Positions 1 to 18,077 of a DNA stretch of 64,000 nucleotides are shown piece after piece (positions within the stretch are counted from its first letter, which is position 1; the number at the start of each line of letters is the position of its first letter). The stretch comes from Caldifarciminota bacterium (GTDB lineage Bacteria > Hydrothermota > UBA3073), in the NCBI GenBank assembly GCA_030606335.1, contig JAUWGP010000001.1:62001-126000 (forward strand), written 5' to 3'. The position numbers and the translations under genes are program-made. Under the pieces are notes generated by a model that saw nothing but the letters and a program-made list of their open reading frames with translations, did no database searches and was not told where the DNA came from.

Positions 1-742
1 AGGGTTCATGAGGAATTCCATCTCCATCCTCGTAGTATATGAAGTCACCCTCACAAAAATATAGATAATCCTTGAAATCATAATCCGGACGAAATGCGCC
101 ATGGTATCCCCAGTACATATTGTGTATCGTGGAATCTGAGGTATTTATTATCTCAAGGTCAAAAAATATAAAGTCCTCTGCATAAGCTCTGCCAAATGAA
201 TATGTAGTCTGCCTGACTAAAATACCCAGGGGACCTTTGGGGTTATATGTATCATTGAATATACAAAAGGCATCCCTTTCTGATACAAACTCTCCTGGAA
301 TCTCCTCTCCTGTCTCAGGGTCCTTTCTAAACCTACCAGGCCAAAACCTTTCTCCAAATTCATCCCTTGGCCAGGTAGTGTCCGCATCACTTATAGCCAT
401 AATGGGCATCCCATCAGGTGTTTCGAGGTCACCCGAAAACAGGTCACCAAGAGAACCATCCTTTGCCTCCCAATCGAAATATGTTCTTGATATGAATGAT
501 TCTATTACATTATCCTGTACAGCGGCAAAGGGTCCCAGACCAAAGCAGTACTGCTGCTCAAACACTGCCCAGGATGGCCAGTGCATTGATGGTGCATAAA
601 AATGGAATTCAGAAAAGAGTCCAAAGTTACTCGTGGTGGTAGAAAGTTCCCCCATATCCAGGATTGCTATAGCCCTGTCTTCTTTACCTGCATACAAAGA
701 TAGTGCTGCAAGTGTAAGTATAATACTACATACTCTCTTCAT
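1..742 (-). CDS. Secreted protein of unknown function, 3' end outside the window
   Basis: Reading leftwards from an ATG at 740-742 gives 247 open codons that run off the window edge. The first 18 residues (MKRVCSIILTLAALSLYA) form a Sec signal peptide, so the protein is exported. The rest is rich in aromatic and acidic residues and looks like a large extracellular beta-rich protein; I recognise no enzyme motif. The start lies 7 bp after the stop of the TonB-dependent receptor, so the two are very probably co-transcribed and this may be a surface or substrate-handling partner of it. A C-terminal sorting domain cannot be checked because the 3' end is missing. The reading frame is certain; the function is unknown. 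Confidence 0.75.
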   Translation of the reverse strand, partial: MKRVCSIILTLAALSLYAGKEDRAIAILDMGELSTTTSNFGLFSEFHFYAPSMHWPSWAVFEQQYCFGLGPFAAVQDNVIESFISRTYFDWEAKDGSLGDLFSGDLETPDGMPIMAISDADTTWPRDEFGERFWPGRFRKDPETGEEIPGEFVSERDAFCIFNDTYNPKGPLGILVRQTTYSFGRAYAEDFIFFDLEIINTSDSTIHNMYWGYHGAFRPDYDFKDYLYFCEGDFIYYEDGDGIPHEP

Positions 743-749
743 AATTATC

Positions 750-3281
750 TTACCAGAAAAGCTTAAAACCACATCTTACCTCTCTACGTTTGCCTACATT
801 ACGGGGGTCATATACAGCATCAGGTGATGTGCCAAGACCTCCCCAACCTGGATCCCAGGGGTCTCCTGTCCTTGAATACACATAAAGTGGATTTAAATGG
901 TCAAGTAAATTTGTACCCTCTATAAACAAACGGGATGATATCCCTTTGAAAATTAGCATCTCCTTTTCAACCCTGAGGTTAACCTCAGATGTCCACGCCA
1001 TCCTAGCAGAATTTTGCTCAACGTACAATCCCGGTCCTACATAGGGAGTGTATGGAAGACCACTTGATGCCTCTATAAGCAGATTGAAGCTTGTGTTTGC
1101 CAGCCACCTTATACGATAAGATTCTGGATATTCAATGCTCAAAGAAAAGGCAATATCATGGGTTCTGTCAAAACCAAGATAATACTCAGTCATAGCCTCA
1201 GGTCGTCCGGTATATGCATTCCAGAATCCCTCCATTGGTGATGAACGGTTACCCCTTGCTACAGAGAATGTATAGTTAAAGGATGTATAAATGATATCAA
1301 CAATTCTTCCCTTAAGAGTCAGATCAATTCCCTTGGAATTCCCATAATCTTCATTATCATAAACAAAATAATCTATACCAGACCAACGAATAGACCTTGT
1401 GGTCACCATATTTGTCATATCTTTATAGAATGCGGTAATGTAAAAGGCAAAAGACTCGCTAAGTTTTTGCTGCAGTCCAACCTCATAGGCAACTGTCTTC
1501 TGTGCCTCTATACTGGGGTTTCCTATTATTACATTGTTTATGAGAGAATCGGGGTCAAGATAGTGTAGATTCGTATACTGACAGTAATAAGATGGATTCT
1601 GAAAGAAGTGTCCATAGGCAAAATGGAGTACAGTCCTATCTGTTACAGGATGTGCAAGCCCAATTCTGGGACTAAACTGCATCTTTTTATCCACTCTTAC
1701 AACCTCTGATTCCGGGTCTCTTATATCACTCCACATATCCGTTCTTGGGTCTGCATAATCAAACCTGATACCTGCATTGAGCACCATATAGTCATACTCC
1801 ATCTTATCCTGGAGATATGCCGCAGCCTCAACAGGATAGTGCTGAAATTCCTGAAACTGATAGGGACCACCAACAACCATGCGACTCATCTGGTGCAGGT
1901 AAAGGTCACATCTCTTTACCTCAACACCTGCCTTAAATTGATGTCTGTTGTTTAATTGTATTGTCAAACTACTGTTTAAAGAGATACTACCTGTCTTTGA
2001 ATCACGATAGAGGGGATAGTCTCCACCACCCTCAGTATAAAACTCAAGATCAGTTGCAATACCCGCCTCATAATCCTCTGGTTCTTTGTCGTCAACTCTT
2101 AACAGATTGTCTCTGCTGAAATTACTAAATCCTAAACTATAAAAAACCCTTTCATTGGGTGCGTATCTTATAGAAATTGCCTCTCTATGCATAAATCTTT
2201 TTCCCCGGGGATAATGGTCGTATCTATATTTCCACGAATGGCTGTAGTTTTGATAATAATTATCCCCTCCCTGTATTGAAAGAAATATATTAAAATTTTC
2301 TAAACGTGTGGTAATTTTTGCAATAATGTTCCGCTCGAGCGAATATCCAAAAGGAAGATAGCTATTTTCAGCAATATACTTACCAGCTGTGAAAAGGGTT
2401 GTATTACGAAGACCAGGAATACCGCTACTCAAATACCCCTCAAAACTCCCAGGGGCTACAACATCATAATAATCTCTTAAATCCTGCCTTATATATTCAT
2501 ATTTGTCCTCTACTTCGTACTCTGCAAAGGCATTCTCTTTTCTGTACTGAAAACCCGCGATGTTTATACTACTATATCCTATATCACCATTAAATTTTGC
2601 CTCCCCGCTCTTCGTAACTATGTTTACAACACCAGACATCGCATCACCGTATTCTGCATTGAAGGTGCCAGATAACAAAACCATCTCTGATATTGAACTG
2701 CTTGGCAAAAATGATTTAAAACCCCCAAAGAGTGGGTCCCTCACAGACATACCATCTATCATATATGCAAGCTCTCCTGAACGTCCTCCCCTTACATGTA
2801 TCTCCTGTCCTGAACCAAGGGTTACACCAGCTTGTGATGCAAGAATTTCGGAAATAGTGTGGAGTGGTCCTTTCTCTATTTCTTTATCTGTAATAACTGA
2901 TATCTTTGAGGTGCGGTCAAACTCAATAAGAGGTCTTTCGCCAATTACGATTACCTCCTTACCAATATCCAGGATTGTGGGATTTAGACTGAAATTGAGG
3001 GGAGTTGTTCTATCACTCACAATGAGTGCTCCTTCTTGAATTACGACCTGGAATCCCATCATTTCTGCCTTTACATCATAATAGCCTGGTGGAATTCCTA
3101 ATATAAAGTAATATCCATCTTCATCGGTCACCCCCCCAAGATTGGCATCGATGAGATAAACATTCACAAAGGGAAGAGGTTCTCCTGTCTCAGTATTCAC
3201 TACCCTTCCGGCTATCTTTCCGGTAGTGCCTGCAAGAAGTAAGGTTGGTAGAAAAATTATATAACATATTATTTTTCTCAT
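750..3281 (-). CDS. TonB-dependent receptor with N-terminal carboxypeptidase-regulatory-like domain
   Basis: This is an 843-residue outer-membrane receptor. In order it has a signal peptide (about 1-18), a CarboxypepD_reg-like beta-sandwich (about 20-105, starting GKIAGRVVNTETGEPLPFVN), a plug domain (about 115-225, with the VHVRGGRSGE-type motif seen here as IHVRGGRSGELAYMIDG and later MSGVVNIVTKSG), and a long beta-barrel ending in the aromatic residues FKLFW typical of barrel proteins. This SusC-like architecture is common in the FCB group. Such receptors import large or scarce ligands using the TonB-ExbBD system, none of which is in this window, so the ligand cannot be assigned. It is the upstream gene of the exported protein at the window edge. 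Confidence 0.93.
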   Translation of the reverse strand: MRKIICYIIFLPTLLLAGTTGKIAGRVVNTETGEPLPFVNVYLIDANLGGVTDEDGYYFILGIPPGYYDVKAEMMGFQVVIQEGALIVSDRTTPLNFSLNPTILDIGKEVIVIGERPLIEFDRTSKISVITDKEIEKGPLHTISEILASQAGVTLGSGQEIHVRGGRSGELAYMIDGMSVRDPLFGGFKSFLPSSSISEMVLLSGTFNAEYGDAMSGVVNIVTKSGEAKFNGDIGYSSINIAGFQYRKENAFAEYEVEDKYEYIRQDLRDYYDVVAPGSFEGYLSSGIPGLRNTTLFTAGKYIAENSYLPFGYSLERNIIAKITTRLENFNIFLSIQGGDNYYQNYSHSWKYRYDHYPRGKRFMHREAISIRYAPNERVFYSLGFSNFSRDNLLRVDDKEPEDYEAGIATDLEFYTEGGGDYPLYRDSKTGSISLNSSLTIQLNNRHQFKAGVEVKRCDLYLHQMSRMVVGGPYQFQEFQHYPVEAAAYLQDKMEYDYMVLNAGIRFDYADPRTDMWSDIRDPESEVVRVDKKMQFSPRIGLAHPVTDRTVLHFAYGHFFQNPSYYCQYTNLHYLDPDSLINNVIIGNPSIEAQKTVAYEVGLQQKLSESFAFYITAFYKDMTNMVTTRSIRWSGIDYFVYDNEDYGNSKGIDLTLKGRIVDIIYTSFNYTFSVARGNRSSPMEGFWNAYTGRPEAMTEYYLGFDRTHDIAFSLSIEYPESYRIRWLANTSFNLLIEASSGLPYTPYVGPGLYVEQNSARMAWTSEVNLRVEKEMLIFKGISSRLFIEGTNLLDHLNPLYVYSRTGDPWDPGWGGLGTSPDAVYDPRNVGKRREVRCGFKLFW

Positions 3282-3407
3282 ACTATAAATAATACCATAG
3301 AATAACTATTTTGTCAAGTTTTTTTTGGGAGAATTCTGAAAAAGGATTCAAATATCATCTTTATTACTTATTTACTTTCGCTCTTCGATTATTTTTGTAT
3401 TTTTTAC

Positions 3408-3436
3408 TTGACTTTTCATGATTTTTGTATTATATT
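3408..3436 (+). promoter_or_regulatory. Sigma-70-like promoter
   Basis: TTGACT at 3408-3413 and TATATT at 3431-3436 are separated by exactly 17 bp. It faces the AT-rich accessory genes beginning at 3.7 kb. The 3282-3688 gap otherwise holds only a possible ribosome binding site near 3463 and a 24-codon open frame at 3483 that I do not call as a gene. Confidence 0.6.
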
Positions 3437-3691
3437 ATTTATGTATCCAACAATAAACATAAAGGAGAAATTATAGAACTTAATGCTCAAAACCTCAATT
3501 GATTTAATATATCTCTTATTTCCTGTTCTTGCACAGCATTCATACATCCCCTCTTAGGTGGAACTCAAACTGAATTTAAAAAACTACAAAATATCATTAT
3601 TGCCTGAAATATAAATCTATATTGGCTTTTAAGTGGGTATAGTAATGACCCTCAGGAGAGAGGGTATAGAGAGGGTATTCAAGAAAAGTTG

Positions 3692-3913
3692 ATGGTAAGA
3701 GAGGGTATGGAGGGTTATTTTACGAAAGATAAAATTGAATTATTAAAATTCCTTAAAAAAGAGGGTATAACCTCAATGAAAGAACTCAAGGAGTTGGTCA
3801 ATAAAATCAAACCACTTAAAGACGCACTGGCTATTGACGAAATTGCTAAAGCTTATAAAACCCTAATAACCGCTCTCAACAAATTCCACTCCAACCTAAA
3901 ACTTGATAAATAA
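3692..3913 (+). CDS. Small protein of unknown function
   Basis: This is a 73-residue open frame from ATG 3692 (a TTG lies one codon earlier). The product is Lys/Glu-rich and predicted helical, with a patch GYFTKDKIELLKFLKKEG that would suit a short coiled coil. It has no recognised domain. It is preceded by a GAGG-rich tract with several GAGGGTAT repeats, which makes the ribosome binding site ambiguous. It sits at the head of the AT-rich patch with the winged-helix and methylase genes. It could be a remnant of a longer gene. Confidence 0.4.
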   Translation: MVREGMEGYFTKDKIELLKFLKKEGITSMKELKELVNKIKPLKDALAIDEIAKAYKTLITALNKFHSNLKLDK

Positions 3914-4004
3914 TCGTTTTGAATACATCACATATTATAATATTAATTATTGCTGTATGGGGTGCTTTTTGGTCTACAATTGAGAAAATAAAAAAGATAT
4001 AGTT

Positions 4005-4814
4005 ATGGCTAGGACAATAGAGGAAAATATTCAGGTCATTCTTAAAAGCCTTGTTGAACGTTCACGCCATAAAAGTACAGGGGAAGTAAGTTGGGAGAGA
4101 CATACATTAGCAAGGAAAACAAGATTGAGCAATTCTGAGATGAGTGATGCTCTCACTTTTTTGAAGGAAGAAGGATTGGTTAAAGTTGTATACTTTTTGG
4201 GAGACAATTTCGTAGTAACATTAACACCGAAAGGTAAATTAGAGTTTGAACGTACACAAGAAAAAATAGCGGAACAGGAATTAGATTCATCAGTAGAGGA
4301 AAGGAAGTTTTCTTCAAAGATAATTATTATTGCGCTAATGGTTGTTGGTATTATTGTTCCTATTATTTTCGGGATAGTACAGTGTCAAAAAAAATCTAAA
4401 ATGGTGCTATCGATTCAAGGGGATAAAAATATTCAAATAATAGGTAATGGTAACTATGTTGACAATCGTATATACTATATTAAAAATGAGCATAAACCAG
4501 AATTGGTATATTCATTTTCTGAAATAGAACAATCTGTAGATGGAAAATATATAAAAAAATTAAATATAGAAGTCAGTAGTAATATTCCAGTATATAACCC
4601 GAAAATTTATCTGAAATTTAATAAAGTTATTCAAAAAGTCGATTTGAATTATTCTGGTGTTCTATTTTACGAAAAAATCTGTGGTGAATCAAATAGTAAT
4701 GAATACTCATATACTACAAGGGAGTTTGTTCCAGGTCCAAAAATACAGTTTGTCTTCTCTAATGATACTGAATTTAATATTATAGATTTCAAAATATGGG
4801 TAGAGAAAGAATAA
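4005..4814 (+). CDS. Winged-helix, single-pass membrane protein of unknown function
   Basis: The 269-residue product has a winged helix-turn-helix-like region (about 1-85; recognition part around RKTRLSNSEMSDALTFLKEE, then a TLTPKG wing), a short linker, one strong transmembrane helix (about 104-125) and an outer domain of about 140 residues that begins with a GDKNIQIIGNGN segment. The DNA-binding half would be cytoplasmic and the C-terminal half outside, so a membrane-bound sensor/regulator is plausible, though I do not recognise the family. There is no clear ribosome binding site. It lies 83 bp upstream of a methylase-nuclease fusion in a stretch markedly richer in AT than its flanks, which suggests acquisition as part of a defence cluster (inference). 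Confidence 0.7.
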   Translation: MARTIEENIQVILKSLVERSRHKSTGEVSWERHTLARKTRLSNSEMSDALTFLKEEGLVKVVYFLGDNFVVTLTPKGKLEFERTQEKIAEQELDSSVEERKFSSKIIIIALMVVGIIVPIIFGIVQCQKKSKMVLSIQGDKNIQIIGNGNYVDNRIYYIKNEHKPELVYSFSEIEQSVDGKYIKKLNIEVSSNIPVYNPKIYLKFNKVIQKVDLNYSGVLFYEKICGESNSNEYSYTTREFVPGPKIQFVFSNDTEFNIIDFKIWVEKE

Positions 4815-4897
4815 AGCTCCCATCACTCTCAAGAATATCGTGATATAAAAAATAAAATGAACTATCTTGGAGATCTATTGTCAATTCACAATATAAA

Positions 4898-6130
4898 ATG
4901 AAAAATGTTCTTTATTGCGGTGATAATCTTGAGGTTTTGAGAAAAGAAATTTCGGAAGAAAGTGTAGATTTAATCTATATCGACCCACCATTCTTCTCCC
5001 ATAAACATTATGAGGTGATTTGGAAAGACGAGGCAGAGATTAGAAGTTTTGAAGACAGATGGGAGGGAGGTATAGAAAATTACATTGCTTGGATGAGACC
5101 AAGAGTTGTAGAAATGCATAAAACCTTAAAACCAACTGGTAGTTTTTATTTACATTGCGATTGGCATGCCAATGCTCATCTAAGAATTATGTTAGATGAG
5201 ATATTTGGAGAGAAGAATTTTAGAAATGAAATTATCTGGCATTATGATATAGGAACAGCTCCCAAAAAGGATTTAAAACGAAGGCATGATACAATTCTCA
5301 GATATTCAAAAACAAAAGATTATATTTACAATGAACAACGAATTCCACCACTTAACCCAGTCAGATATAACATAAAGGAACCAGATGGTAGAAGATATTT
5401 TACTAGAGGAGATTCTGGGAAAAAATGCTATCTAAATGAAGGTGTATCTCCTGATGATGTATGGACATTTATTAGAGAAAAATCTTTAAGAACTTTAAAT
5501 TCAATGGCAAAAGAGCGTCTTGGTTATCCTACTCAAAAACCCGAAACTCTTTTAGATAAAATTATAAATATATCTTCAAATGAAGGAGATGTCATTTTGG
5601 ATGCTTTTTGTGGGTGTGGGACTACAATGGCAGTTGCATACAAATTAAGAAGAAAATGGATAGGTATTGATATATCTCCTACAGCCATAAAATTAGTAGA
5701 AAAAAGATTAAAAGATATAGGTGCCTACAGAAACGAGCATTATAAAACAATTGGATTACCTACTTCTGAAAAAGAATTAAGGGAATTAAAACCATTTGAA
5801 TTTCAGAATTGGGTTTTAGATGAAATAGGAGGAAGGGTAAGTAGAAAGAAAGTAGGAGACATGGGATTAAATGGTCACTTAATAAAAACTCTATGGCATG
5901 AGAAAGCAGGAATCCAAGTAAAACAGTCCGATAGAGTAGGCAGGAATGTTGTTGACAACTTTGAAACAGCTTTAAGAAGAGATAAATACCAAAAAGGTTA
6001 TATTGTAGCTTTTAGTTTCACCAAAGGAGCTTATGAGGAAGTAGCCAGAGTAAAGAATAAAGGTGAATTGGAGATCACACTTATAACTATCAAGGAATTA
6101 TTAGATAAACGCAAAACTTTACTTACGTGA
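4898..6130 (+). CDS. DNA methyltransferase fused to an Mrr-like restriction nuclease domain
   Basis: This is a 410-residue enzyme. The first 275 residues are an amino-methyltransferase with the catalytic DPPF motif at 29-32 preceding the S-adenosylmethionine motif DAFCGCGTT at 235-243, which is the beta-class order, and the usual TQKP at 212-215. Residues 298-405 look like a PD-(D/E)XK nuclease of the Mrr type: FEFQNWVLDEIGG, Asp321 in GDMGLNG, and Gln340-Val-Lys342 as the (D/E/Q)XK element. One chain may therefore both methylate and cut, or the nuclease half may sense modified DNA. The recognition sequence cannot be read from sequence. It ends with TGA, showing that TGA is a stop codon here. 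Its neighbours are the membrane wHTH protein and a helical protein. Confidence 0.85.
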   Translation: MKNVLYCGDNLEVLRKEISEESVDLIYIDPPFFSHKHYEVIWKDEAEIRSFEDRWEGGIENYIAWMRPRVVEMHKTLKPTGSFYLHCDWHANAHLRIMLDEIFGEKNFRNEIIWHYDIGTAPKKDLKRRHDTILRYSKTKDYIYNEQRIPPLNPVRYNIKEPDGRRYFTRGDSGKKCYLNEGVSPDDVWTFIREKSLRTLNSMAKERLGYPTQKPETLLDKIINISSNEGDVILDAFCGCGTTMAVAYKLRRKWIGIDISPTAIKLVEKRLKDIGAYRNEHYKTIGLPTSEKELRELKPFEFQNWVLDEIGGRVSRKKVGDMGLNGHLIKTLWHEKAGIQVKQSDRVGRNVVDNFETALRRDKYQKGYIVAFSFTKGAYEEVARVKNKGELEITLITIKELLDKRKTLLT

Positions 6131-6184
6131 CACAAAAACGTTTTATATAGTTATTATTAAAAATATTTTATAACATACAAATTC

Positions 6185-7099
6185 ATGGAAAAAATTTGCG
6201 ATAACTTGACAGAGATTGATAAATCAATTGACGAATTACCTTCAGCTGATTCTCTAAATTCGAATAACGACTTCATGTCGAGTTTGGTTAAGATAAGTAA
6301 TAGTATTCTGTATTTGCTTAAACTTACAGCCAGTTTGGCACCAGACGAAAAAAGAGCCCAACGTGGGTATATAAGAAATCAAGCAATACTAGTAGGTTTA
6401 TTTGTCCGTTTAACAAAACTCTACGAATGTTTGTTAGACAGTATGTGCAAAAATTGGGGAGAGATTGCTCAAATATTTTCACGTCTAATATTTGAAACGA
6501 GGATAAAACTAGAATATTTAATGCAGTCGGGTCCCTCTTCATATAGAAGTTTTGTTATTTCATCCCTTCTCGCAGAAAAAGAAATACTGGAAGATATAGA
6601 AGCCAAAAAGAAAAAAGGATCGTTATTACCTATCGAAATAAGAATGCTTCGAAGTGTAAAAAATTGTATTCGTGAAGCTCGAATGTCAAAAAAGGAACTT
6701 CTAGCAATAAAAGGACCGAATCTCGACGGAAAAAATTTTAGGCAGATACTAAAAGATCTTGGTCAAGAACAAAATTATATATATGCATTTAGGACGCCCA
6801 GTCATCTCATACATGGGGATTGGGTCGATTTGTTGTTTAACCATTTACAGAAAGAAGGAAGATTTTATCATCCTAAAATAGAGCATAATACCGCAGATCC
6901 ACGGTTAATTGGACCTATTTCAATATCAATTCTCGATTTTCTCTTTAAATATATCAAAAAACTTCGGCTTAATGGTGACCATGTTATTGTAAATATCGCG
7001 AAAAGGCTGCGTGAAAAATTATTTGAAATTGAAGGGGCTCATGAGAGCTTTTTGCAAAAAAACCGTTTCAGTCCACCTAAATCATGTAACTTGTTATAA
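6185..7099 (+). CDS. All-helical protein of unknown function (DUF5677-like, tentative)
   Basis: This 304-residue protein is predicted almost entirely alpha-helical. A central segment (about 95-130, IFSRLIFETRIKLEYLM) and a later FRTPSHLIHGDWVD motif near 200 recall the DUF5677 group, whose members have a conserved Ser-His near the end. That match is from memory and is tentative. There is no signal peptide or membrane segment. It follows the methylase-nuclease gene by 54 bp in the same AT-rich patch and may be a third component of that cluster. A terminator follows at 7151-7183. Confidence 0.6.
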   Translation: MEKICDNLTEIDKSIDELPSADSLNSNNDFMSSLVKISNSILYLLKLTASLAPDEKRAQRGYIRNQAILVGLFVRLTKLYECLLDSMCKNWGEIAQIFSRLIFETRIKLEYLMQSGPSSYRSFVISSLLAEKEILEDIEAKKKKGSLLPIEIRMLRSVKNCIREARMSKKELLAIKGPNLDGKNFRQILKDLGQEQNYIYAFRTPSHLIHGDWVDLLFNHLQKEGRFYHPKIEHNTADPRLIGPISISILDFLFKYIKKLRLNGDHVIVNIAKRLREKLFEIEGAHESFLQKNRFSPPKSCNLL

Positions 7100-7150
7100 T
7101 AACACAACATAAGCTTTATTAAACAATTTTTCTCAATTATCGTAAAAAAC

Positions 7151-7183
7151 AAAGGGACAAAACCTCAAATTCTGTCCCTTTTT
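7151..7183 (+). terminator. Probable bidirectional intrinsic terminator
   Basis: AAAGGGACA at 7151-7159 pairs with TGTCCCTTT at 7173-7181 around a 13-nt loop. A T run follows and an A run precedes the stem, so it can stop transcription both from the accessory patch (+) and from the glycosyltransferase gene (-), which converge here. Confidence 0.75.
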
Positions 7184-7394
7184 CTCAATTATCTTTTTTC
7201 CCTGCAATCAACTGCAAGCTCTTATCTCTCTTATATCTTCTCCATTTATACCTTCCTTACCTCTTTTCTCAATTATTATAATAACTTATATCCTCTTTGG
7301 AAGAAATTAGAAGACATCCTATAAAGATCAGGATGTTGGATATCAATTACTTTCATATTTAAATGCTTCTAAATTTCATACTGGGTTATTAGTT

Positions 7395-7412
7395 ATCCGT
7401 TAGCTAACGGAT
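7395..7412. repeat. Perfect 18-bp palindrome
   Basis: ATCCGTTAGCTAACGGAT is its own reverse complement, and TATTA/TAATA lie further out on both sides. It sits in the 459-bp gap between convergent genes, so it is not an obvious operator for either. The rest of this gap holds the terminator, a copy of the rpsG-leader palindrome and AT-rich sequence. Confidence 0.7.
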
Positions 7413-7507
7413 TGGTAATAAAAGTTGTCAGGTAAAGAGATTTGTAAATTAATCTGAGTAATTTTTTCCTAACTAAAGGTGTTGTGTAGTTAATATCTGG
7501 GTAATCA

Positions 7508-7527
7508 GGTATAATGAACATTATACC
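7508..7527. repeat. Second copy of the rpsG-leader palindrome
   Basis: GGTATAATGAACATTATACC: 8-bp arms with a 4-nt loop. It differs by one loop base from the copy in front of rpsG (14824-14843). The match extends outwards as GTAATCA before and AGG after. No gene start follows it here. Confidence 0.7.
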
Positions 7528-7558
7528 AGGGGATTATATTGATAAACAGCCAAATAGC

Positions 7559-8623
7559 TTAGATTATTTCCATATTCTTTATTTGCTCAAGCACCTCTGA
7601 AACTGGAATGTCAAGGCAGACCTGTCTCTTACATCTCGGTATTCTGTACTTATAACAAGGGCTACAAGGAAGTTTTTTCCTTATTATCCTAACATTGCCA
7701 CTTGGTCTGTTCTTCACAGGGTCTGTGGGACCAAAGATTGCTACAACAGGAACGCCTACAGCAGATGCAATATGCATAAGACCCGTATCACCTGTGAAAA
7801 AAAGTGAAAATTTGCTAATAAGGTCTATAGATTTGAGTATATCTTTTCCTATATACTTATAAACATCCCTATCTTCAGCTATTTCATCTATTAGTTGCCT
7901 GTCTTCTTCTCCTCCGACAAGAATTACTGATACACCTGTCAAGGAGTCAATCAATTTACAGTATCTTCTCTTACCCCATGATTTAAAATCACCACCTGGA
8001 TGAATACCCAGTATCTTTCCTTTTATCTCTTTCTCTTGTAGGAATCTTTCTCCAAATCCCTTATGTCTATATAAACTATATTTACTTGATACCTTGAGTG
8101 AGAATATCCGTTCGACAGTCTGTGAGTCCGCTTCTGTCTCGCTAATTCTCTGTGCAGGCTGGATTATATTGAAGAATATCCCCCTCTTTCCTCTATCATA
8201 TCCGATACGATACTTGGTTCCTGATAGATATGAGATAAGGGACGTAAGAAAGGTGGGAGATGAGAAGTTTGTTAAAGTAATATCTGGATGTTCTCGATAT
8301 AAACACCGTATTGTATCTAATAATCCAAATGGTAAATTTAATACCGGCATTAACACAACCTTAGTGGGGTATAGCAGCTTTCCAGCATCTGGATGCATTG
8401 CATACACCAATAAACTATTCCTATATTTATCCTGCAGTGTTCCTATTGCGGGAATAGCCATAACTGCATTTCCTATACCTCCCCAAAGTAGATAGACAAC
8501 TTTCCCTATAGAAGACGGAGTATCTTTCAACCCTCTAAAAGGATACAATAAAAACCCGATAATGGAAATTATCAGGCGGATAAAAAGACGGAATAGTAAA
8601 ATCAAGATAGTAACTCCATACAT
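7559..8623 (-). CDS. Glycosyltransferase family 9 (heptosyltransferase-like)
   Basis: The 354-residue product has a hydrophobic N-terminus (about 1-28), perhaps a membrane anchor, followed by the GT9 two-Rossmann architecture. Characteristic elements are LLWGGIGNAVMAIPAIGTL (about 47-65), LGIHPGGDFKSWGKRRY in the second half, and the nucleotide-sugar motif GDTGLMHIASAVGVPVVAIF followed by GPTDP. A C-terminal CSPCY...C...C cluster is usual for the family. GT9 enzymes add heptose or related sugars to lipopolysaccharide core or other surface glycans at the inner face of the cytoplasmic membrane. It stands alone here without other polysaccharide genes, so the acceptor is unknown. Confidence 0.9.
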   Translation of the reverse strand: MYGVTILILLFRLFIRLIISIIGFLLYPFRGLKDTPSSIGKVVYLLWGGIGNAVMAIPAIGTLQDKYRNSLLVYAMHPDAGKLLYPTKVVLMPVLNLPFGLLDTIRCLYREHPDITLTNFSSPTFLTSLISYLSGTKYRIGYDRGKRGIFFNIIQPAQRISETEADSQTVERIFSLKVSSKYSLYRHKGFGERFLQEKEIKGKILGIHPGGDFKSWGKRRYCKLIDSLTGVSVILVGGEEDRQLIDEIAEDRDVYKYIGKDILKSIDLISKFSLFFTGDTGLMHIASAVGVPVVAIFGPTDPVKNRPSGNVRIIRKKLPCSPCYKYRIPRCKRQVCLDIPVSEVLEQIKNMEII

Positions 8624-8694
8624 TAATTACAGAATGATGAATCAAAACATTACAATTCCGATTACAATCATGACATGGTAATTTTATAATGTGG

Positions 8695-8804
8695 TGTCAT
8701 TGCGAGCGACTAACGGGAGCGTGGCAATCTCATTTTTATTCTTTATCCCCTCTGTAATGCGATTGCTTCGTCATCCGTCAACCGACGGACTCCTCGCAAT
8801 GACA
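8695..8804. repeat. Interspersed inverted-repeat element, CATTGCGAG type
   Basis: TGTCATTGCGAG at 8695-8706 pairs with CTCGCAATGACA at 8793-8804, with nested arms GCAATC/GATTGC and CCGTC/GACGG inside. A second, less complete copy begins at 8818. Related pieces occur near 24.9, 25.8 and 49.7 kb. The element is non-coding and fills the gap between topA and the glycosyltransferase gene. Confidence 0.8.
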
Positions 8805-8948
8805 ATTTTTAGTGTTTGTCATTGCGAGTCCTACCCTCTAAACATGAGGCACAAAATAAAAGTATATCCTAATAAAGTACATAGAGGGCAGGATGAAGCA
8901 ATCTCATCCCTGGTATCAGTAGGAGGGACTTCCCAGTCCCGATATTAT

Positions 8949-9048
8949 GGAGTGCCTACCAGCGGCGGTAGGCAGGCAATGATCATGCTCATCCTGTAGA
9001 GGAATACTCTACGGGGTCATTGCATACCCCACCATGACGGGGTACTCC
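8949..9048. repeat. Multi-hairpin palindromic element, GGAGTGC type
   Basis: The element opens with GGAGTGC and closes with GTACTCC. Between them lie internal hairpins CCTACC/GGTAGG, TAGAG/CTCTA and CCCC/GGGG. A related 49-nt element with the same GGAGTGC/GCACTCC outer stem is inserted in a coding sequence at 37329-37377, and a fragment occurs at 25252. Confidence 0.6.
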
Positions 9049-9064
9049 AAACCGATATGAGAAC

Positions 9065-11221
9065 TTAAGACTTATCTTTCTCCTTATACCCACATTTTGG
9101 GCATACAAGAGCTTTTTTCCTCTTCTCCATTACACTACAACCACACTCAGGACAGGTCTTCTGGAAAGGTGGGTTCCATATGGAAAACTTACATTTTGGG
9201 TAATTTTTACAGCCATAGAATGTTCTACCTCTCTTTGTCTTTCTCTCAATTATTTCGTTCCCACACTCAGGACAATTAATACCGGTTCCAAGAGGTTTTG
9301 TAAACTTACATTCAGGATATCCACTGCAGGCAATAAACCTGCCAAAGCGAGAATCTTTTATTACAAGCTCCTTGCCGCACTCAGGACATTTCTCTCCTAT
9401 CTTTTTTTCCTGTTCCTTCTTAAGAGGTCTTGTGTTTTTACATTGCGGATATCCTGAACAAGCGAGGAATCTACCAAACCTTCCAATCTTTACAACCATC
9501 TGCTTCCCACATTTATCACAAACCTCATCGGTAACCTCTTCAAGAGATTCTCTCGTCTTTACGGTATCAAATTTAGCGATACTTTTAGAAAACTTTACAT
9601 TGAAGTTAGAAAGAAGTTCTGTTTTCCCCATATCCTTTGCTTCTACTCGATCAAGCTGCTCCTCCATACTCTGAGTGAATTTTACATTAAATAGTTCCTG
9701 GAAATTTTTTATAAGAACGCTGTTTACCATAATACCGAGCTCTGTAGGTATAAGTTTACCCTTATCCTTTATCACATATTCCCTCTGTAATAATGTCCAT
9801 ATTATAGGTGCATAGGTTGATGGTCTTCCTATCCCCTTGGTCTCAAGCTCCTTAACCATACTACCCTCAGTGTATCTGGGTTTTGATTTCGTGAATTCTT
9901 GTTGCATATCAGGCTTTTTAACTAAAGATAATTCCTCTCCCTTCTTCAGCTCGGGTATTATCTCACATTCTTTCTCCTTAATTCCTGCTACAAGAAGAAA
10001 ACCTGGAAAATCCAGTATCTCTGAGGTTGCCTCAAATTCATACTGCCCTGACTCTATAATCGCCTTCCTCGTATTGTATCTTGCCGGAGCAGACTGAGAA
10101 GCAAGAAATCTCTTCCATATCATATTGTAGATTTTATATTGATCGCCTGTCAGATAACGTCTGATCTTTGATGGAACCATTTTCAAAGATGTAGGTCTTA
10201 TCGCCTCATGTGCTCCCTGTGCACCCTTTTTTTCTTTATATATATTTGGCTTTGTTGGTATATAGGCTTTACCATACATATCTTTTATAAATTCCCTTGC
10301 TTCTTTAACCTTATCCTTTGCAATTCTCACAGAATCTGTCCTCATATATGTTATCAAACCAACAGCCTTGCCTTCAACTTCTATACCCTCAAATAACTGC
10401 TGTGCTATCTTCATTGTTCTGGATGCACTCATATTAAGATTTGCTGACGCCTCCTGCTGAATGGTGCTCGTAATGTATGGAGGTTTAGGTCTGAGCAGTT
10501 TTATACCACTCTTGAAACTACTCACGATGAAATTATGTCTGGTTATTTCATTTACAACTTTTGTTGCCTCTTGTTTCGTTTTGGGTTTAACCTTGACTAA
10601 TTTAGCATTAAATTCTTCTTTTGTTTCCTTTTTTCTCAGTCTAACTATTATATTCCAATACTCTTGAGGAACAAAATTCCTTATTTCCTCCTCTCTTTCA
10701 CAAATAATCCTCAGAGCAACTGACTGCACTCTGCCTGCTGAGAGGGTCCTTTTTTTAAATACCTTCCAGAGAAGGGGTGAGATTTTATAACCAACAAGCC
10801 TGTCAAGTATTCTCCTTGCTATTTGTGCATCCACCTTCGACATATCTATCTTTCCAGGATTTCTAAGTGCTTCTATCACCTTCTTTTCTGTAATCTCATA
10901 AAAGAGAACCCTTTCCACCTCATTGTCTATAACATTCTGGATATGATATGCGATCGCCTCACCTTCTCTATCAGGGTCAGTAGCAAGTATCACCTTTCCA
11001 CTCTTACCGGATGCCTTTTTGAGTGAATCTATTATTTTCTCTTTCCCTTTTATCGGAACATACTCGGGATAAAAGTTTTTCTTGATATCAACACCAAGTT
11101 TATTTGCAGGAAGGTCCATTATATGACCCTTGGTTGATATTAACTTATACCTATCTTTGAGGTATCGTTCAATAGTGCGTGCCTTTGTAGGCGATTCCAC
11201 TATGATTAAATTTTTTGCCAT
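9065..11221 (-). CDS. topA: DNA topoisomerase I with four C-terminal zinc-finger modules
   Basis: The 718-residue type IA topoisomerase relaxes negative supercoils through a transient 5'-phosphotyrosine link. Its TOPRIM domain starts at the N-terminus (LIIVESPTKARTIERYL, and later ATDPDREGEAIAYH with the acidic metal ligands). The catalytic Tyr lies in GLITYMRTDSVRI at about 300, and the cleavage domain contains GIGRPSTYAPII. After about 560 there are four four-cysteine modules (CDKCGK, CPECGK, CPECGN, CPECGC). The first three have the GRFLACSGYPQCK-like second half, and the last is shorter. Length and domain order are normal for the family. The ATG start follows a repeat-rich gap and has no strong ribosome binding site. 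dprA, often found upstream, is absent. Confidence 0.97.
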   Translation of the reverse strand: MAKNLIIVESPTKARTIERYLKDRYKLISTKGHIMDLPANKLGVDIKKNFYPEYVPIKGKEKIIDSLKKASGKSGKVILATDPDREGEAIAYHIQNVIDNEVERVLFYEITEKKVIEALRNPGKIDMSKVDAQIARRILDRLVGYKISPLLWKVFKKRTLSAGRVQSVALRIICEREEEIRNFVPQEYWNIIVRLRKKETKEEFNAKLVKVKPKTKQEATKVVNEITRHNFIVSSFKSGIKLLRPKPPYITSTIQQEASANLNMSASRTMKIAQQLFEGIEVEGKAVGLITYMRTDSVRIAKDKVKEAREFIKDMYGKAYIPTKPNIYKEKKGAQGAHEAIRPTSLKMVPSKIRRYLTGDQYKIYNMIWKRFLASQSAPARYNTRKAIIESGQYEFEATSEILDFPGFLLVAGIKEKECEIIPELKKGEELSLVKKPDMQQEFTKSKPRYTEGSMVKELETKGIGRPSTYAPIIWTLLQREYVIKDKGKLIPTELGIMVNSVLIKNFQELFNVKFTQSMEEQLDRVEAKDMGKTELLSNFNVKFSKSIAKFDTVKTRESLEEVTDEVCDKCGKQMVVKIGRFGRFLACSGYPQCKNTRPLKKEQEKKIGEKCPECGKELVIKDSRFGRFIACSGYPECKFTKPLGTGINCPECGNEIIERKTKRGRTFYGCKNYPKCKFSIWNPPFQKTCPECGCSVMEKRKKALVCPKCGYKEKDKS

Positions 11222-11588
11222 ACCTTAACAATTGATGATTTTCGATTGAAGATTGACGATTGCATTCCAATTTATTTTCCTCAATAGTCAATATTCAATT
11301 ATTACTATTTCTCCCTCTTCCCCTCAATTTTACATTGCTAATTGCTAATTTTGCATTGATAATTGACTTCAACTTCCCTCTTCAGTCTTTCATTATCGTC
11401 CGTCAAACGACGGACTCCTACTTTTAATTTACTATTTTCAATTGTCGATTTACGATTGCATTCCAATATCATTTAACCTAATCAACCAATTAACTTTTCA
11501 ACTAATCAACTATTATCTCGTTTCACATTTAACATCTCACATTTAACATCTCACATTTAACATTTAACATCCAACACTAAACATTCTC
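11222..11588. repeat. Repeat-rich intergenic gap
   Basis: The 367-bp gap between thiD and topA contains no gene. It is built of short degenerate repeats: alternating CAATTGA/TCAATTG-like words, TAATTGCTAATTTTGC, a CCGTCAAACGACGG palindrome at 11399-11413, and four tandem copies of a CATTTAACATCTCA unit at about 11525-11575. Similar filler surrounds 12.4, 19.7 and 41 kb. Confidence 0.6.
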
Positions 11589-12353
11589 TCACCAAACAAG
11601 ACTCCCTTTACCATAATGTCCTGCGTTTTCTATACAGTTTGATACAAATCTTTTAGCCTTCTCTATTGATGATAAAAGGTTATTGCCTAATGCAAGATAT
11701 GAGACTATTGCCGATGCATAGCAACATCCTGCGCCGTGTACCTGCACATCTAATCTTTCACCAGAGAAGTGTCTTACTCTTTCACCATCAAATAGGACAT
11801 CAACAGCCTTTTTCTCAACAAGGTGTCCGCCCTTTATCAAAACAGGTTTTTTACAGAATCTAAATATTTTCTTCGCTGCCTTTTCAGCATCCTCAATCCC
11901 ATCTATCTCTATACCTGATAACAATGAAGCCTCCATCCTATTTGGTGTAGAAATGGTAGCGATGGGAAAAAGACTCTCAAGCATTTCAGAGACAGCACCA
12001 TTCTCAAGGAGAGAGTAACCTGTTCCTGAGACCATAACTGGGTCGACAACGATATAATCTGGTTTATGAAATTTTAATCTCTCCACTACTGTAAGAATTA
12101 TAGATTTATCATAGAGTATACCCGTCTTTACTGCCGAGACTTTCAAGTCATCAAACACTGTATCGATCTGTTCTTTTATGAAAGATGTCGGAATAGGAAG
12201 GATATTTCTTATACCCATGGTATTCTGTGCAGTAAGGGCAGTCAGGCAGGATGCACCATAAACACCAATCGATTCAAAAGTCTTTATATCTCTTTGGACG
12301 CCAGCCCCTCCAGAAGAATCGGAACCAGCGATGGTCAAAACCACAGGATGCAT
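11589..12353 (-). CDS. thiD: Hydroxymethylpyrimidine/phosphomethylpyrimidine kinase
   Basis: This 254-residue ribokinase-fold enzyme phosphorylates HMP and HMP-phosphate on the pyrimidine branch of thiamine diphosphate synthesis. It has the HMP-binding N-terminus [20 protein letters not shown], the TALTAQNT segment, [13 protein letters not shown] in the middle, and the anion-hole/catalytic motif as [11 protein letters not shown] (usual HGTGC, so Thr is replaced by Ala). Length is typical for single-function ThiD. No other thiamine gene and no TPP riboswitch are nearby. Confidence 0.93.
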
Positions 12354-12513
12354 AAGTAGATAGTAAGGCGTAAATTGTAATTGGTTATAAAAGCATATCA
12401 GAATACCAGAGAATCAGAAGGCAGATTACCAGAGTATCAGAACCTGATGTACTGATTGACTGATACCCTTCCAACTGATATTCTGATTGGCTGATATACA
12501 AAAGGATAGGTCA

Positions 12514-13425
12514 TTATTCTATACTTACTGTAATATGGTGTGAATTACCGAGGTCGTATTCAAATGGAAGATATGCATAATCGAATGTATAGTTGCTATA
12601 ATTAATTCCAAAGCCAAATGAGGCATCTTTTGAATCAAATCCAAATCTTTTACCCATTCTAAGAGTTATATATGAATTTAGTGAATACTCCACACCAAAG
12701 CTTGATGTAAGAACCTCATCAAGTGCCTTTCTAAAAGAAGCCGAAAACCCGAATTTCTTAATCTCATAACCGCTGCTGAAGTTGAATGTTAGAGGAAGTC
12801 TTATAGGAGTCGAACCATCTATATTATAACTTGGTCGAGGTCCTATATTCGTAGCAACAAAGGAAACATAAAGGTTATTAATAGGAACGTAATTAAACCC
12901 TAAGTCCACTGCATATCCCTTAAGGCTGTAAACATAACATCTCTCGTAAATATATTTATATGTTCCCCCAAGCCAAACCTCACCCATCTTTCTTGCATAA
13001 GATAAATAAGAGACCAGACTAAAAGGAGAATAGTCTCCATATAAAGCCTGTCTCGAATCTCTTAACTCGATATCGCCTGCTGAGAAATAAATAGAACCAA
13101 CACCAAAGCCATGTTTACCATCACCCCATACTACTCCTGCAAACTCATATCTTGTACCTATAACCTGTGATGTATGAGAGAACGTAGCGCTAAGACCTGA
13201 TACCAGTGGAATCTGAGAAGGATTCCAGAAGAGCAAAGTGGCGTCCCTTGATAGAATACCACCTCCAAGTGCAAGGTTTCTGGCACCCACTTCAAGTTTC
13301 AGTAATGGTAAACCTACACCGTCACTCTTCGATTTAAAAAATTCCTTTATGTCATTTATAATACCTGCCTGACTTACACCACAAAAGAGAATAACAATAA
13401 CCGCTAATAATCTTAAATAACGCAT
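12514..13425 (-). CDS. PorV/PorQ-family outer-membrane protein
   Basis: The 303-residue product has a signal peptide (about 1-20) and a beta-barrel-like body. The PorV/PorQ (UPF0164) signature follows residue 40: LLKLEVGARNLALGGGILSRD and then ATLLFWNPSQIP. The family belongs to the FadL-like barrels. In the FCB group PorV shuttles type IX secretion substrates, and other members are of unknown role. The presence of sorting-domain proteins elsewhere in the window fits a link with such secretion, but this paralogue's role is an inference. It follows moxR by 9 bp, so the two are one transcription unit. Confidence 0.85.
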   Translation of the reverse strand: MRYLRLLAVIVILFCGVSQAGIINDIKEFFKSKSDGVGLPLLKLEVGARNLALGGGILSRDATLLFWNPSQIPLVSGLSATFSHTSQVIGTRYEFAGVVWGDGKHGFGVGSIYFSAGDIELRDSRQALYGDYSPFSLVSYLSYARKMGEVWLGGTYKYIYERCYVYSLKGYAVDLGFNYVPINNLYVSFVATNIGPRPSYNIDGSTPIRLPLTFNFSSGYEIKKFGFSASFRKALDEVLTSSFGVEYSLNSYITLRMGKRFGFDSKDASFGFGINYSNYTFDYAYLPFEYDLGNSHHITVSIE

Positions 13426-13434
13426 ATATACCCC

Positions 13435-14418
13435 TTAAATAAAATGTTTAATTAACTTCTCAATCACAACATCTGTGGTAATGTTCTCTGCCTCTGCAGC
13501 AAAGTTCAATATGAGTCTATGCCGTAATACTGGTTTTAATACGGAATTAACATCCGACATTGATGGCGTGGTTCTTCCGTCCAGTAGTGCCTTTGCCTTT
13601 GCTCCTAATACAACATATTGAGATGCCCTTGGAGAGGCTCCCCATGTAACCCACTCTTTTATAAACTTTGGTTTTTCCGAATTATTAGAGGGTCTTGTAA
13701 GACCAATTAATTTTACAACATCACTCACCAGACTATTAGATACCGGAACTCTACGAACAAGATTTTGTAGCTCGAGTATCTCATTCCTACCAATAACTGA
13801 ATTAATCTCATTCACGTAAGCACTGGTTGTTGTCTCAACAATCCTAACCTCTTCATCTGGTTCTGGATAATCTATCACTACCTCGAACATAAATCTATCG
13901 AGCTGTGCCTCAGGAAGTGGATATGTTCCTTCTTGCTCAATCGGGTTTCTGGTCGCAAGAACAAAGAACGGTTGCTCAAGCTGAAACGTATGTCCTCCTG
14001 CGGTAACTTTGAACTCCTGCATTGCCTGCAGAAGAGCTGCCTGGGTCTTCGGAGGTGTTCTGTTGATTTCATCAGCCAGGATCATATTAGCAAATATAGG
14101 ACCCTTCAAAAATCTGAATTCTCTTTTTCCAGTTTTCCTCTCCTCCTCCAGTATCTCTGTCCCTGTTATATCCGAGGGCATAAGATCTGGAGTAAATTGT
14201 ATCCTCTGAAAAGAAAGAGAAAGTGTTCTTGAAAGCGTATTTATTATAAGAGTTTTAGCAAGTCCTGGTACACCAAGAAGGAGTGAATGCCCTCCTGCAA
14301 GAAGTGAGATAAGTATCTGCTCTATCACCTTATCCTGTCCTATGATGACCTTATGCAGCTCTTTCAGGATTTTTTCCTTTGCAGTTCCCAGTTTCTCTAT
14401 GCTCTCAACATCACTCAT
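13435..14418 (-). CDS. MoxR-family AAA+ ATPase
   Basis: The 327-residue product is a complete MoxR ATPase: Walker A as GVPGLAKT (about 57-64), Walker B as ILADEINRTPPKTQAALLQA, the sensor segment FVLATRNPIEQEGTYPLPEA, and a C-terminal lid with WVTWGASPRASQ. MoxR proteins act as chaperones that activate or insert cofactors into partner proteins, usually with a VWA-domain partner encoded next door. Here the downstream neighbour is a PorV/PorQ protein rather than the common DUF58/VWA set, so the client is unclear. Confidence 0.93.
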   Translation of the reverse strand: MSDVESIEKLGTAKEKILKELHKVIIGQDKVIEQILISLLAGGHSLLLGVPGLAKTLIINTLSRTLSLSFQRIQFTPDLMPSDITGTEILEEERKTGKREFRFLKGPIFANMILADEINRTPPKTQAALLQAMQEFKVTAGGHTFQLEQPFFVLATRNPIEQEGTYPLPEAQLDRFMFEVVIDYPEPDEEVRIVETTTSAYVNEINSVIGRNEILELQNLVRRVPVSNSLVSDVVKLIGLTRPSNNSEKPKFIKEWVTWGASPRASQYVVLGAKAKALLDGRTTPSMSDVNSVLKPVLRHRLILNFAAEAENITTDVVIEKLIKHFI

Positions 14419-14642
14419 CTATCCCCCGTGATATTGTGACAATAATATGTTCTGATTTAAAAAAATATACTTCTCTCTTAAAATCTCTTTCCTGCCTACC
14501 GGCAGGCAGGCAATCCCTGTATAAACAATATCTTTTCTTTTCGAAAAAACATTATATACCAATTTTCAGGAAATGTCAAGGAAAAAGTATTAGGGGAAAA
14601 TCTATTACCTTTCTTTATATCCTTTTTGGTCTCATTTTTTTC

Positions 14643-14671
14643 TTGACTTTTTGTAAATTTTATGTTAAACT
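14643..14671 (+). promoter_or_regulatory. Promoter of the rpsG operon
   Basis: TTGACT at 14643-14648, a 17-bp spacer and TAAACT at 14666-14671. Transcripts from it would carry a leader of about 180 nt before rpsG. The rest of the 14419-14854 gap holds a GCCTACCGGCAGGC hairpin and AT-rich sequence. Confidence 0.65.
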
Positions 14672-14823
14672 AATATGCAAAAAAATCGAATATCATTATA
14701 AATTTTAAATGAATAAACATTCACAGATATCCTTTAAAAAATAGGGGTACCTGAGTGGATTGTTATATATTTTAGTAATAAAATCTTCAGATAGAGAAAT
14801 ATACATCTTAATCTGAGTAATCA

Positions 14824-14843
14824 GGTATAATGAATATTATACC
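14824..14843 (+). promoter_or_regulatory. Hairpin directly in front of the rpsG ribosome binding site
   Basis: GGTATAATGAATATTATACC can fold into an 8-bp stem with a 4-nt loop. It abuts the AGGAGG Shine-Dalgarno at 14844-14849 (ATG at 14855), a position where a stem or a bound protein could control translation. Its left arm also contains TATAAT, so as DNA it could instead be an operator over a -10 box. A near-identical copy is at 7508-7527. Confidence 0.55.
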
Positions 14844-14854
14844 AGGAGGTTTTC

Positions 14855-15325
14855 ATGCCAAGAAGAAAGAGACCTGAGAAAAGAAACATACCACCCGAAT
14901 GCAAGTATAATAGTGTTCTAGCACATAAATTTATTAACTGTCTTATGAAGGATGGCAAAAAAAGTATTGCTCAACGTATATTTTATAATACACTTGACAT
15001 AATTGAGAAGAAAGCAAACAAACCAGGAATCGATATATTCAACCAGGCACTTGAAAACGTCAAACCCATGGTCGAGGTTAAACCAAGAAGGGTCGGTGGT
15101 GCTACATATCAGGTTCCAATGGAGGTTAGAAAGGGAAGACAAATGTCGCTCGCTATAAGATGGATTCTTGATGCTGCAACATCAACTTCTGGCAAACCCA
15201 TGCGTGAGAGATTAGCAGATGAACTCATAGCTGCTTCCAAAAGAGAAGGAAATGCAATAAAGAAAAAAGATGACACACATCGTATGGCAGAAGCAAACCG
15301 TGTCTTTGCACAATTTAAGTGGTAA
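14855..15325 (+). CDS. rpsG: 30S ribosomal protein S7
   Basis: The 156-residue S7 binds the 3' major domain of 16S rRNA and nucleates head assembly of the small subunit. It starts MPRRKRPEKRNIPPE with a good AGGAGG ribosome binding site. Conserved segments are VLAHKFINCLMKDGKKSIAQ, LENVKPMVEVKPRRVGGATY, QVPMEVRKGRQ and the C-terminal RMAEANRVFAQFKW. The usual upstream rpsL is absent, and fusA, normally next to it, lies 4.5 kb downstream. The str operon is therefore split, and rpsG instead heads an operon with lolD, tpiA and secG. Confidence 0.98.
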   Translation: MPRRKRPEKRNIPPECKYNSVLAHKFINCLMKDGKKSIAQRIFYNTLDIIEKKANKPGIDIFNQALENVKPMVEVKPRRVGGATYQVPMEVRKGRQMSLAIRWILDAATSTSGKPMRERLADELIAASKREGNAIKKKDDTHRMAEANRVFAQFKW

Positions 15326-15375
15326 TTTGGAATAAATTAATGCTCTTTTAAATGAAGTATCTCTGGTGATTAAAT

Positions 15376-16044
15376 ATGGTTCCAGTAATTGAGGCATGTT
15401 CATTGTATAAGAGATTTAAAGAGGATTCGGGAGAACTTGAAGTACTAAAAGACGTCTCCCTATCTGTAGAGAAGGGAGAAATCGTTGTAATTGTCGGTCC
15501 GTCGGGTTCTGGCAAATCAACTCTTTTATACATTCTTGGAGGACTCCTGCGACCATCGAGTGGCAATGTCTTGCTTGAGGGTGGAAGTCTATTTAGGTAC
15601 AAAGAAATAAAACTTGCGACTATCAGGAACAAAAAAATTGGTTTTATATTTCAGTTTCATCACCTTTTACCTGAGTTTACTGTACTTGAGAATGTAGCAA
15701 TGCCTCTTTGGATAGATGGAAAGAACAATATAGAGAAGGCTAAAGAGATTCTTGAATTGACATCAGTTGAGCATAAGAAGAATTACTTACCCTCAAGACT
15801 CTCAGGGGGAGAAAGGCAGCGCGTCGCAGTAGCGAGGGCACTGGCTAATGACCCTTCTGTTGTCCTTGCAGATGAACCCTCTGGTAATCTGGATCGAGAG
15901 TTATCATTGTCTCTTCATAATCTAATTAGGAAGATCGCTTTAGAGACTAAAAGAACATTTGTTATAGTCACCCATAAAGATTCTATGAGGGCTATTGCAG
16001 ACCGAGTATTTACATTAACAAACGGTAAGCTTATTAGGCAATGA
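15376..16044 (+). CDS. lolD: LolD/MacB-type ABC transporter ATP-binding protein
   Basis: The 222-residue ATPase has Walker [10 protein letters not shown]-loop [11 protein letters not shown], signature [18 protein letters not shown] and Walker [13 protein letters not shown], with the H-loop in IVTHKD. The [10 protein letters not shown] stretch is typical of LolD, which powers extraction of lipoproteins from the inner membrane with LolC/LolE. No permease gene is adjacent, so LolD is assigned by sequence type and a FtsE/MacB-like role is possible. It lies 50 bp after rpsG in the housekeeping operon and ends with TGA. Confidence 0.85.
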
Positions 16045-16099
16045 AAGGGCAGTACAGACTTATCTACTGTTAGAAACTTTCAAGATAAGGAAGTAAAAC

Positions 16100-16867
16100 A
16101 TGAGGAAACCTCTGATTGCAGGAAACTGGAAGATGAATATGGGAGGGAGTGATTCGAAAGAACTCTCCCGAAGTATCAGAAATGCTCTGGACGATTACAC
16201 TGATATTGATATTTTGTTGTGTCCTCCCTATACTGCTATTACTCATGTTTATGAAATAATAAAAAATACTTCAATAATACTTGGAGCACAAAACTGTTTT
16301 TATGAGTCGAAAGGTGCCTTTACCGGAGAGATATCTCCTCTATTTCTCCTCGATATTGGTTGTAAGTATGTAATATTGGGACATTCTGAAAGAAGATATT
16401 ATTTTGAGGAAACAGCGGATTTGATAGGTAAAAAGATGATATGTTCATTAGATTCTGGTCTTAATATTATTCTATGTGTGGGTGAAAAACTTGAGGAAAG
16501 GGAGAATGGAGAGGCATTTGAAATTGTAAAATTACAATTGGAAGGGAGTTTTAGAAACTTACCAGAAGATTATCTTAAAAAAATTACAGTTGCTTATGAG
16601 CCTGTATGGGCTATTGGTACAGGTAAAACCTGTGAGCCGAATATGGCTGAAGAGATGCACCATTTTATAAGAAGTTGGTTCAAGGTAAAATTCGGTGATA
16701 TTATAAGCAATAATCTGAGAATACTTTATGGTGGAAGTATCAAGCCAGAGAACATCTCATCACTTATAGTAAAAGAAGACATTGATGGGGGGCTCATAGG
16801 AGGAGCAAGCTTAAATGTAGATTCTTTCATCCAGATAATTAAAAATACTATTAAAGCAGTACATTAA
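16100..16867 (+). CDS. tpiA: Triosephosphate isomerase
   Basis: This 255-residue TIM barrel interconverts dihydroxyacetone phosphate and glyceraldehyde 3-phosphate in glycolysis and gluconeogenesis. It has the substrate Lys in AGNWKMN at the start, the electrophilic His in LGHSERRYYFEE, the catalytic Glu in VAYEPVWAIGTGKT, and the phosphate-gripping LYGGSIKPEN and GGLIGGASL loops. All key residues are present and length is normal. It is followed after 37 bp by secG, a common gene order. Confidence 0.98.
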   Translation: MRKPLIAGNWKMNMGGSDSKELSRSIRNALDDYTDIDILLCPPYTAITHVYEIIKNTSIILGAQNCFYESKGAFTGEISPLFLLDIGCKYVILGHSERRYYFEETADLIGKKMICSLDSGLNIILCVGEKLEERENGEAFEIVKLQLEGSFRNLPEDYLKKITVAYEPVWAIGTGKTCEPNMAEEMHHFIRSWFKVKFGDIISNNLRILYGGSIKPENISSLIVKEDIDGGLIGGASLNVDSFIQIIKNTIKAVH

Positions 16868-16904
16868 TTAATTGATTTAGATTGACTTTATTGACGGGGG
16901 TTAT

Positions 16905-17240: not shown

Positions 17241-17287
17241 ATATTTTACCATTTCTTGTGAAATAGAAAAAATTATTCGGAGGGAGT

Positions 17288-17761: not shown

Positions 17762-17780
17762 TTTATACTAAGGAGATTTT

Positions 17781-18035: not shown

Positions 18036-18077
18036 TTCATTTACACTGTAATAACCCTCCATAACAGGAGGTCTTAT

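Follow-up and report, generated by a model that had tools for sequence, protein, structure and literature searches.

The locus described here lies in a window of 64,000 nucleotides, which is the whole stretch of DNA that was analyzed. It contains three large open reading frames (ORFs) on the + strand that encode proteins of 269, 410, and 304 amino acids and that are flanked on both sides by genes on the - strand. The intergenic gaps between the three genes are 83 and 54 bp and there are no overlaps. The features of the locus, and the evidence for each, are as follows:

Positions 3408-3436, + strand: promoter-like site TTGACT-17-TATATT, found by scan, in the left flank and common to G143, a genome of the same genus
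Positions 3608-3913, + strand: 3' remnant of a Cro/C1-type HTH regulator gene, including a 74-aa ORF, assigned by homology to an intact protein on contig C103 of G143
Positions 3915-7108, no strand: variable cargo block, in place of which G143 has 3755 bp of unrelated genes
Positions 4005-4814, + strand: 269-aa protein with a weak winged-helix N-terminus, one transmembrane segment, and a C-terminal domain of no family (Pfam, hydrophobicity)
Positions 4898-6130, + strand: 410-aa fusion of a beta-class N6-adenine DNA methyltransferase and an Mrr-like nuclease (Pfam, PADLOC, PDB matches, AlphaFold2)
Positions 5765-6127, + strand: Mrr-like nuclease domain of the fusion (Mrr_cat at residues 297-402; alignment A4)
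Positions 5870-5872, + strand: AAT codon for Asn325, which alignments pair with the conserved active-site Asp (D203 in E. coli Mrr)
Positions 5915-5923, + strand: QVK, the intact Q340-x-K342 of the PD-QxK motif, from alignments
Positions 6185-7099, + strand: 304-aa DUF5677 protein, all helical (Pfam 1.6e-17)
Positions 7151-7181, - strand: terminator-like hairpin of 14 pairs, found by scan, in the right flank and common to G143
Positions 7311-7532, + strand: copy of a dispersed repeat that includes the final codons of a GxxExxY (PDDEXK_3) gene and lies outside the cargo, to the right of the slot

Positions 1-20000 of the window were compared by blastn with locus L106 of G143. The left flank matched over positions 1-3914 (94.8% identity) and the right flank over positions 7109-11249 (93.3% identity), no match was found within 3915-7108, and a base-level alignment also showed the homology stopping at 3914 and restarting at 7109. 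The 3755 bp that G143 carries instead contain six ORFs, of which one encodes a TIGR04255 protein and another a PIN-domain protein, and all six are unrelated to the cargo genes of the window. Because the flanks match up to 3914 and from 7109 with unrelated ORFs between them, 3915-7108 is, on these alignments, exchangeable cargo, and as a whole unit. The finding of conserved flanks with different cargo comes from one comparison, that of the genome of the window (G000) with G143, since the slot was compared in two genomes of the genus and hence in a single pair. The defence content of the two cargoes, again for these two genomes only, amounts to one gene of restriction-modification (R-M) type in the window and no PADLOC match among the six proteins in G143. 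By eye, a 268-aa protein of the G143 cargo resembles DUF5677 in having an R-x3-E and a late His; it was rejected as DUF5677-like, as it was not among the best 43 of 201 with the A2 profile, all shuffles. No convincing terminal repeats were found around the block or around the fusion gene. An integron-like or repeat-bounded cassette was also rejected, the repeats being short and at chance level, and a search with Rfam over the window gave nothing useful.

A preliminary description of this DNA had presented a cluster of four genes that differs in composition from its flanks and that begins after one promoter and ends at one terminator. The three large ORFs are real, but the ORF counted as the first gene (starting at 3689 or 3692 and ending at 3913) was rejected as a gene and is the 3' end of the broken HTH regulator gene in the conserved flank. 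Positions 3617-3901 correspond to residues 61-157 of the intact 160-aa regulator of G143 (46% identity, E 1e-19), which itself matches HTH_19/HTH_3. The homology begins at 3617, upstream of the start of the 74-aa ORF and downstream of an in-frame TGA at 3605-3607, and the HTH half has been lost. The ortholog on the slot side in G143 matches residues 88-160 only, with the homology split between frames, and from its sequence this copy also looks broken. Outside this genus, no genome in the phylum set yielded the intact regulator. In G143 the intact regulator gene lies directly upstream of genes for a DUF6602 protein and a Type ISP/IIG R-M enzyme (L111, positions 20000-32000 of contig C103), plausibly as a regulator-controlled R-M locus.

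The difference in composition stood in part, as the GC content of the block is 31.9% and below that of the left gene (40.2%), the right gene (37.6%), and the window (37.6%), but it is not unique. A GC content as low was found in 42 of 609 windows of the same length, mostly at ~25-28 kb, where it is lower still than in the block. The case for one promoter and one terminator is weak. The scan returned 25 promoter-like matches (23.5 +/- 4.8 expected) and 3 terminator-like matches (2.5 +/- 1.7 expected), both near chance, and the promoter-like site and the hairpin both lie in flanks that are common to G143. By their alignment with G143, these two sites and the regulator remnant are thus common flank and not cargo.

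The first cargo protein had been called a membrane winged-helix protein. It does have one strong hydrophobic segment (residues ~106-124), but its winged-helix match is below threshold (HTH_34 0.02). The third cargo protein matches DUF5677 (PF18928) with 64.5 bits against a gathering score of 27.1. Its structural model is of low confidence (pLDDT 66), and nothing with an E value of 0.001 or lower came from a fold search with this model. Relatives of both outer proteins were sought by single-sequence search, in which near relatives are visible and remote ones would escape. Each was found in 1 of 147 genomes of the phylum, its own, and was absent from the 146 others. The 269-aa protein had no match among plasmid, phage, and IMG/VR records and the 304-aa protein had none in IMG/VR records; distant DUF5677 proteins occur in three plasmid records and some DUF5677 protein is present in 13 of the 147 phylum genomes. 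Additionally, neither outer protein was found in any of the 32 other genomes that bear the fusion, in searches run without a positive control and with five loci that are contigs of one genome (L007, L008, L040, L044, and L052) searched once. At the fetched fusion loci no DUF5677 gene was seen except that of the window, and a literature search on DUF5677 in defence gave nothing useful. The preliminary description had staked its reading on the recurrence of the 269- and 304-aa proteins with the fusion enzyme, and within the collections searched the result goes against it.

The central protein is matched by N6_N4_Mtase (3e-51) and Mrr_cat (2.7e-8) in Pfam, is classed as MTase_II by PADLOC, has RsrI, CcrM, and M.BceJIV as PDB matches, and was modeled by AlphaFold2 with a pTM of 0.84. 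A profile search of its nuclease domain against PDB sequences led nowhere. The methylase part is, by sequence and fold, a beta-class N6-adenine methyltransferase, and its catalytic and SAM-binding motifs (DPPF and FCGCGT) are intact. In GTDB genomes 59 fusion loci of all lengths were found with a search that detects close relatives only, and IMG/VR gave 123 candidates, of which 80 on viral contigs were kept. The full-length relatives (~43-78% identical) come from WOR-3/Stahlbacteria, Omnitrophota, Chloroflexi, Actinomycetota, several archaea, and others. Within the phylum 26 of 147 genomes have a match at 1e-30, many through the methylase part alone. Among the relatives the central target-recognition part is strongly variable and the remainder is conserved, as expected for changing specificity. 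Residues ~110-200 of the window enzyme closely resemble those of L006 and of L039 (Bacteroidetes), in which the nuclease part is very different; an exchange of specificity regions is possible from this likeness. One Stahlbacteria genome (G132), apparently the one to which the five contigs named above belong, has 12 matches to the fusion or to its methylase part, some of them truncated where a contig stops, and the gene family has apparently proliferated there.

The neighbors of the fusion gene were surveyed at 51 loci (32 genomic and 19 viral, with 471 ORFs), leaving aside partial and more distant loci and the rest of the viral ones. They are diverse and unrelated, and the only type present at more than three of the 51 loci is the transposase, which occurs at 11 (IS1595-type at seven and IS1-type at four; Pfam confirmed six of the eleven). 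In six cases the transposase is directly upstream on the same strand (L127, L132, L014, L027, L133, and L144). The IS1595 and IS1 families carry passenger genes, and the fusion gene is probably sometimes such a passenger, whereas the window copy has no transposase nearby. A literature search for methylase passengers of IS1595 or IS1 gave nothing useful. Overall the family, which is widespread in bacteria, archaea, and phages, looks like a stand-alone, portable gene.

The enzyme had been described as a complete methylase joined to a complete QxK nuclease. The methylase motifs and the Q-x-K are present, but the active-site Asp is replaced by Asn325. In alignment A1 (30 enzymes) there is just one column in which all other sequences agree and the window enzyme differs, and it is this one. 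All 96 other nuclease-domain rows have Asp here; among them are duplicate fetches (at least L006/L065, L007/L067, and L008/L090; apparently also L032/L066) and L054, a row in which the QxK did not align. In the AlphaFold2 model residue 325 lies just before the strand at 326-328, and Q340 and K342 are at the strand at 337-341; this modeled arrangement is one that fits the PD-(D/E)xK layout. Residue 325 aligns with D203 of E. coli Mrr, which we take to be the catalytic Asp, and replacement of Asp by Asn at this site kills most PD-(D/E)xK nucleases. A literature search found no statement that D203 is catalytic or that Asn abolishes activity, and only the PD-QxK signature was given. In the excerpts available, E. 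coli Mrr (EcoKMrr) is described as PD-QxK (PMC12707154) and as a variant of PD-(D/E)XK (PMC3874153). With Asn325 in a domain in which nearly all else is conserved, the fusion most likely only methylates; its nuclease is probably inactive and the protein would now be a solitary methylase. The genome is a draft and the change is of a single base (GAT to AAT), and a sequencing or assembly error is possible. D321, an Asp nearby, is retained and could make up for part of the loss. The nearest relative, L006, has kept the Asp and shows four lone departures in its nuclease domain, which may reflect weak selection on nuclease function in this branch.

We consider it likely that the block is the current cargo of a variable slot in the chromosome of a WOR-3/Stahlbacteria-type bacterium, that it holds three accessory genes, and that the central one is a methylation-only copy of an R-M enzyme. 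The slot would extend from the broken HTH regulator gene to the terminator-like hairpin with 3915-7108 as its present cargo, and the three genes would share it without any implication of joint working. The central gene would be a portable one-gene R-M enzyme, in which the N6-adenine methyltransferase would mark a short site and the nuclease on the same chain would cut unmarked DNA, with the window copy most likely retaining methylation alone. No transposase, integrase, or recombinase was found in the cargo of either genome, and from this we infer that cargo is swapped by recombination in the conserved flanks. That the cargo arrived as a single mobile element inserted where the regulator gene ends, with no recombination in the flanks, is rather unlikely on the same grounds and given the lack of convincing terminal repeats, although the left breakpoint coincides with the stop codon of this remnant and six of the 51 fusion loci lie directly behind IS1595/IS1-type transposases. 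An enzyme that still cuts, with Asn325 either tolerated or an assembly error, is unlikely. Only one base differs, and QxK and the remainder of the nuclease are conserved; purifying selection until recently would give the same pattern, and both the invariance of the Asp in the other rows and the usual effect of Asn at this site argue for a loss of cutting.

The preliminary description had proposed a compact defence system, and of this an exchangeable unit with a gene of an R-M family stood while the co-operation of the three genes found no support. A working system in which a membrane winged-helix sensor, the methylase-nuclease, and a DUF5677 effector act jointly is quite improbable. The genes are co-directional, were replaced as one block, are low in GC, and include one from an R-M family, but the absence of the outer proteins from the rest of the phylum set (147 searched) and from the 32 fusion-bearing genomes, the lack of DUF5677 beside other fusion loci, the lost nuclease Asp, and the gaps of 83 and 54 bp without gene overlaps all speak against it, and co-operation of the three cargo genes in defence is judged unlikely. 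A variant in which the Asp-to-Asn change is adaptive, with the fusion as a methylating, non-cutting DNA-binding part and the winged-helix and DUF5677 proteins providing signalling and killing, is very improbable; if true, a system carried in the slot would divide its tasks in a new way.

Under the preferred reading of exchangeable cargo, the fusion is comparable to the single-chain Type IIG/IIC enzymes, which likewise have a methylase and a nuclease on one chain, and its methylase shares its fold and beta-class motif order with RsrI, CcrM, and M.BceJIV. It differs from the Type IIG/IIC enzymes in having Asn for the conserved nuclease Asp. Additionally, the nuclease domains of Type IIG enzymes are typically N-terminal according to an excerpt of PMC5867850, whereas that of the window fusion is C-terminal and Mrr-like (PD-QxK). 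EcoKMrr shares Mrr_cat and the PD-QxK signature with the fusion, but the excerpt of PMC12707154 gives it a winged-helix binding domain and no methylase, whereas in the window the winged-helix protein is encoded by a separate gene and has a membrane segment. The slot resembles the immigration control region of E. coli (yjiA-yjiN), for which the same excerpt describes conserved boundaries and highly variable cargo (PMC12707154), but it is small (3.2 and 3.8 kb), is known from one comparison, and has cargo that is putative defence at most. The block is thus mostly ordinary exchangeable cargo and not a new defence system, and the points of interest are the slot and the loss of a single active-site residue. 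The slot is a small one in an uncultured lineage whose entire contents differ between sister species, and the fusion is a clear-cut candidate for the conversion of a restriction enzyme into a solitary methylase. The locus also advises caution in inferring defence systems from adjacency and the presence of motifs alone.

The dispersed repeat to the right of the slot belongs to a family with at least 43 matches in the same genome, at least 45 in G143, at least 27 in G145, at least 14 in G146, and at least one in G144 (relatives L213-L232). The window copy retains the left hairpin, the last codons of the GxxExxY (PDDEXK_3) gene, and the right end, and the longer copies L218 and L225 hold most or all of the gene. 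From these copies the repeat looks like a mobile unit built on the GxxExxY gene, with internally deleted, MITE-like derivatives. A perfect 18-bp palindrome, ATCCGTTAGCTAACGGAT, lies at 7395-7412 inside the GxxExxY remnant; it is absent from the other copies, which have a 13-bp gap, and is therefore perhaps a small nested palindromic insertion. The right end of the repeat is a palindrome that overlaps a TATAAT box (ggTATAATGAACATTATAcc), seen in the window at 7511-7527 and 14827-14843 and in L213-L232. In most fetched copies a ribosome-binding site and an ATG follow it immediately, with an EF-Tu-like gene next in G145, and it is perhaps a widely shared promoter/operator of the repeat family.
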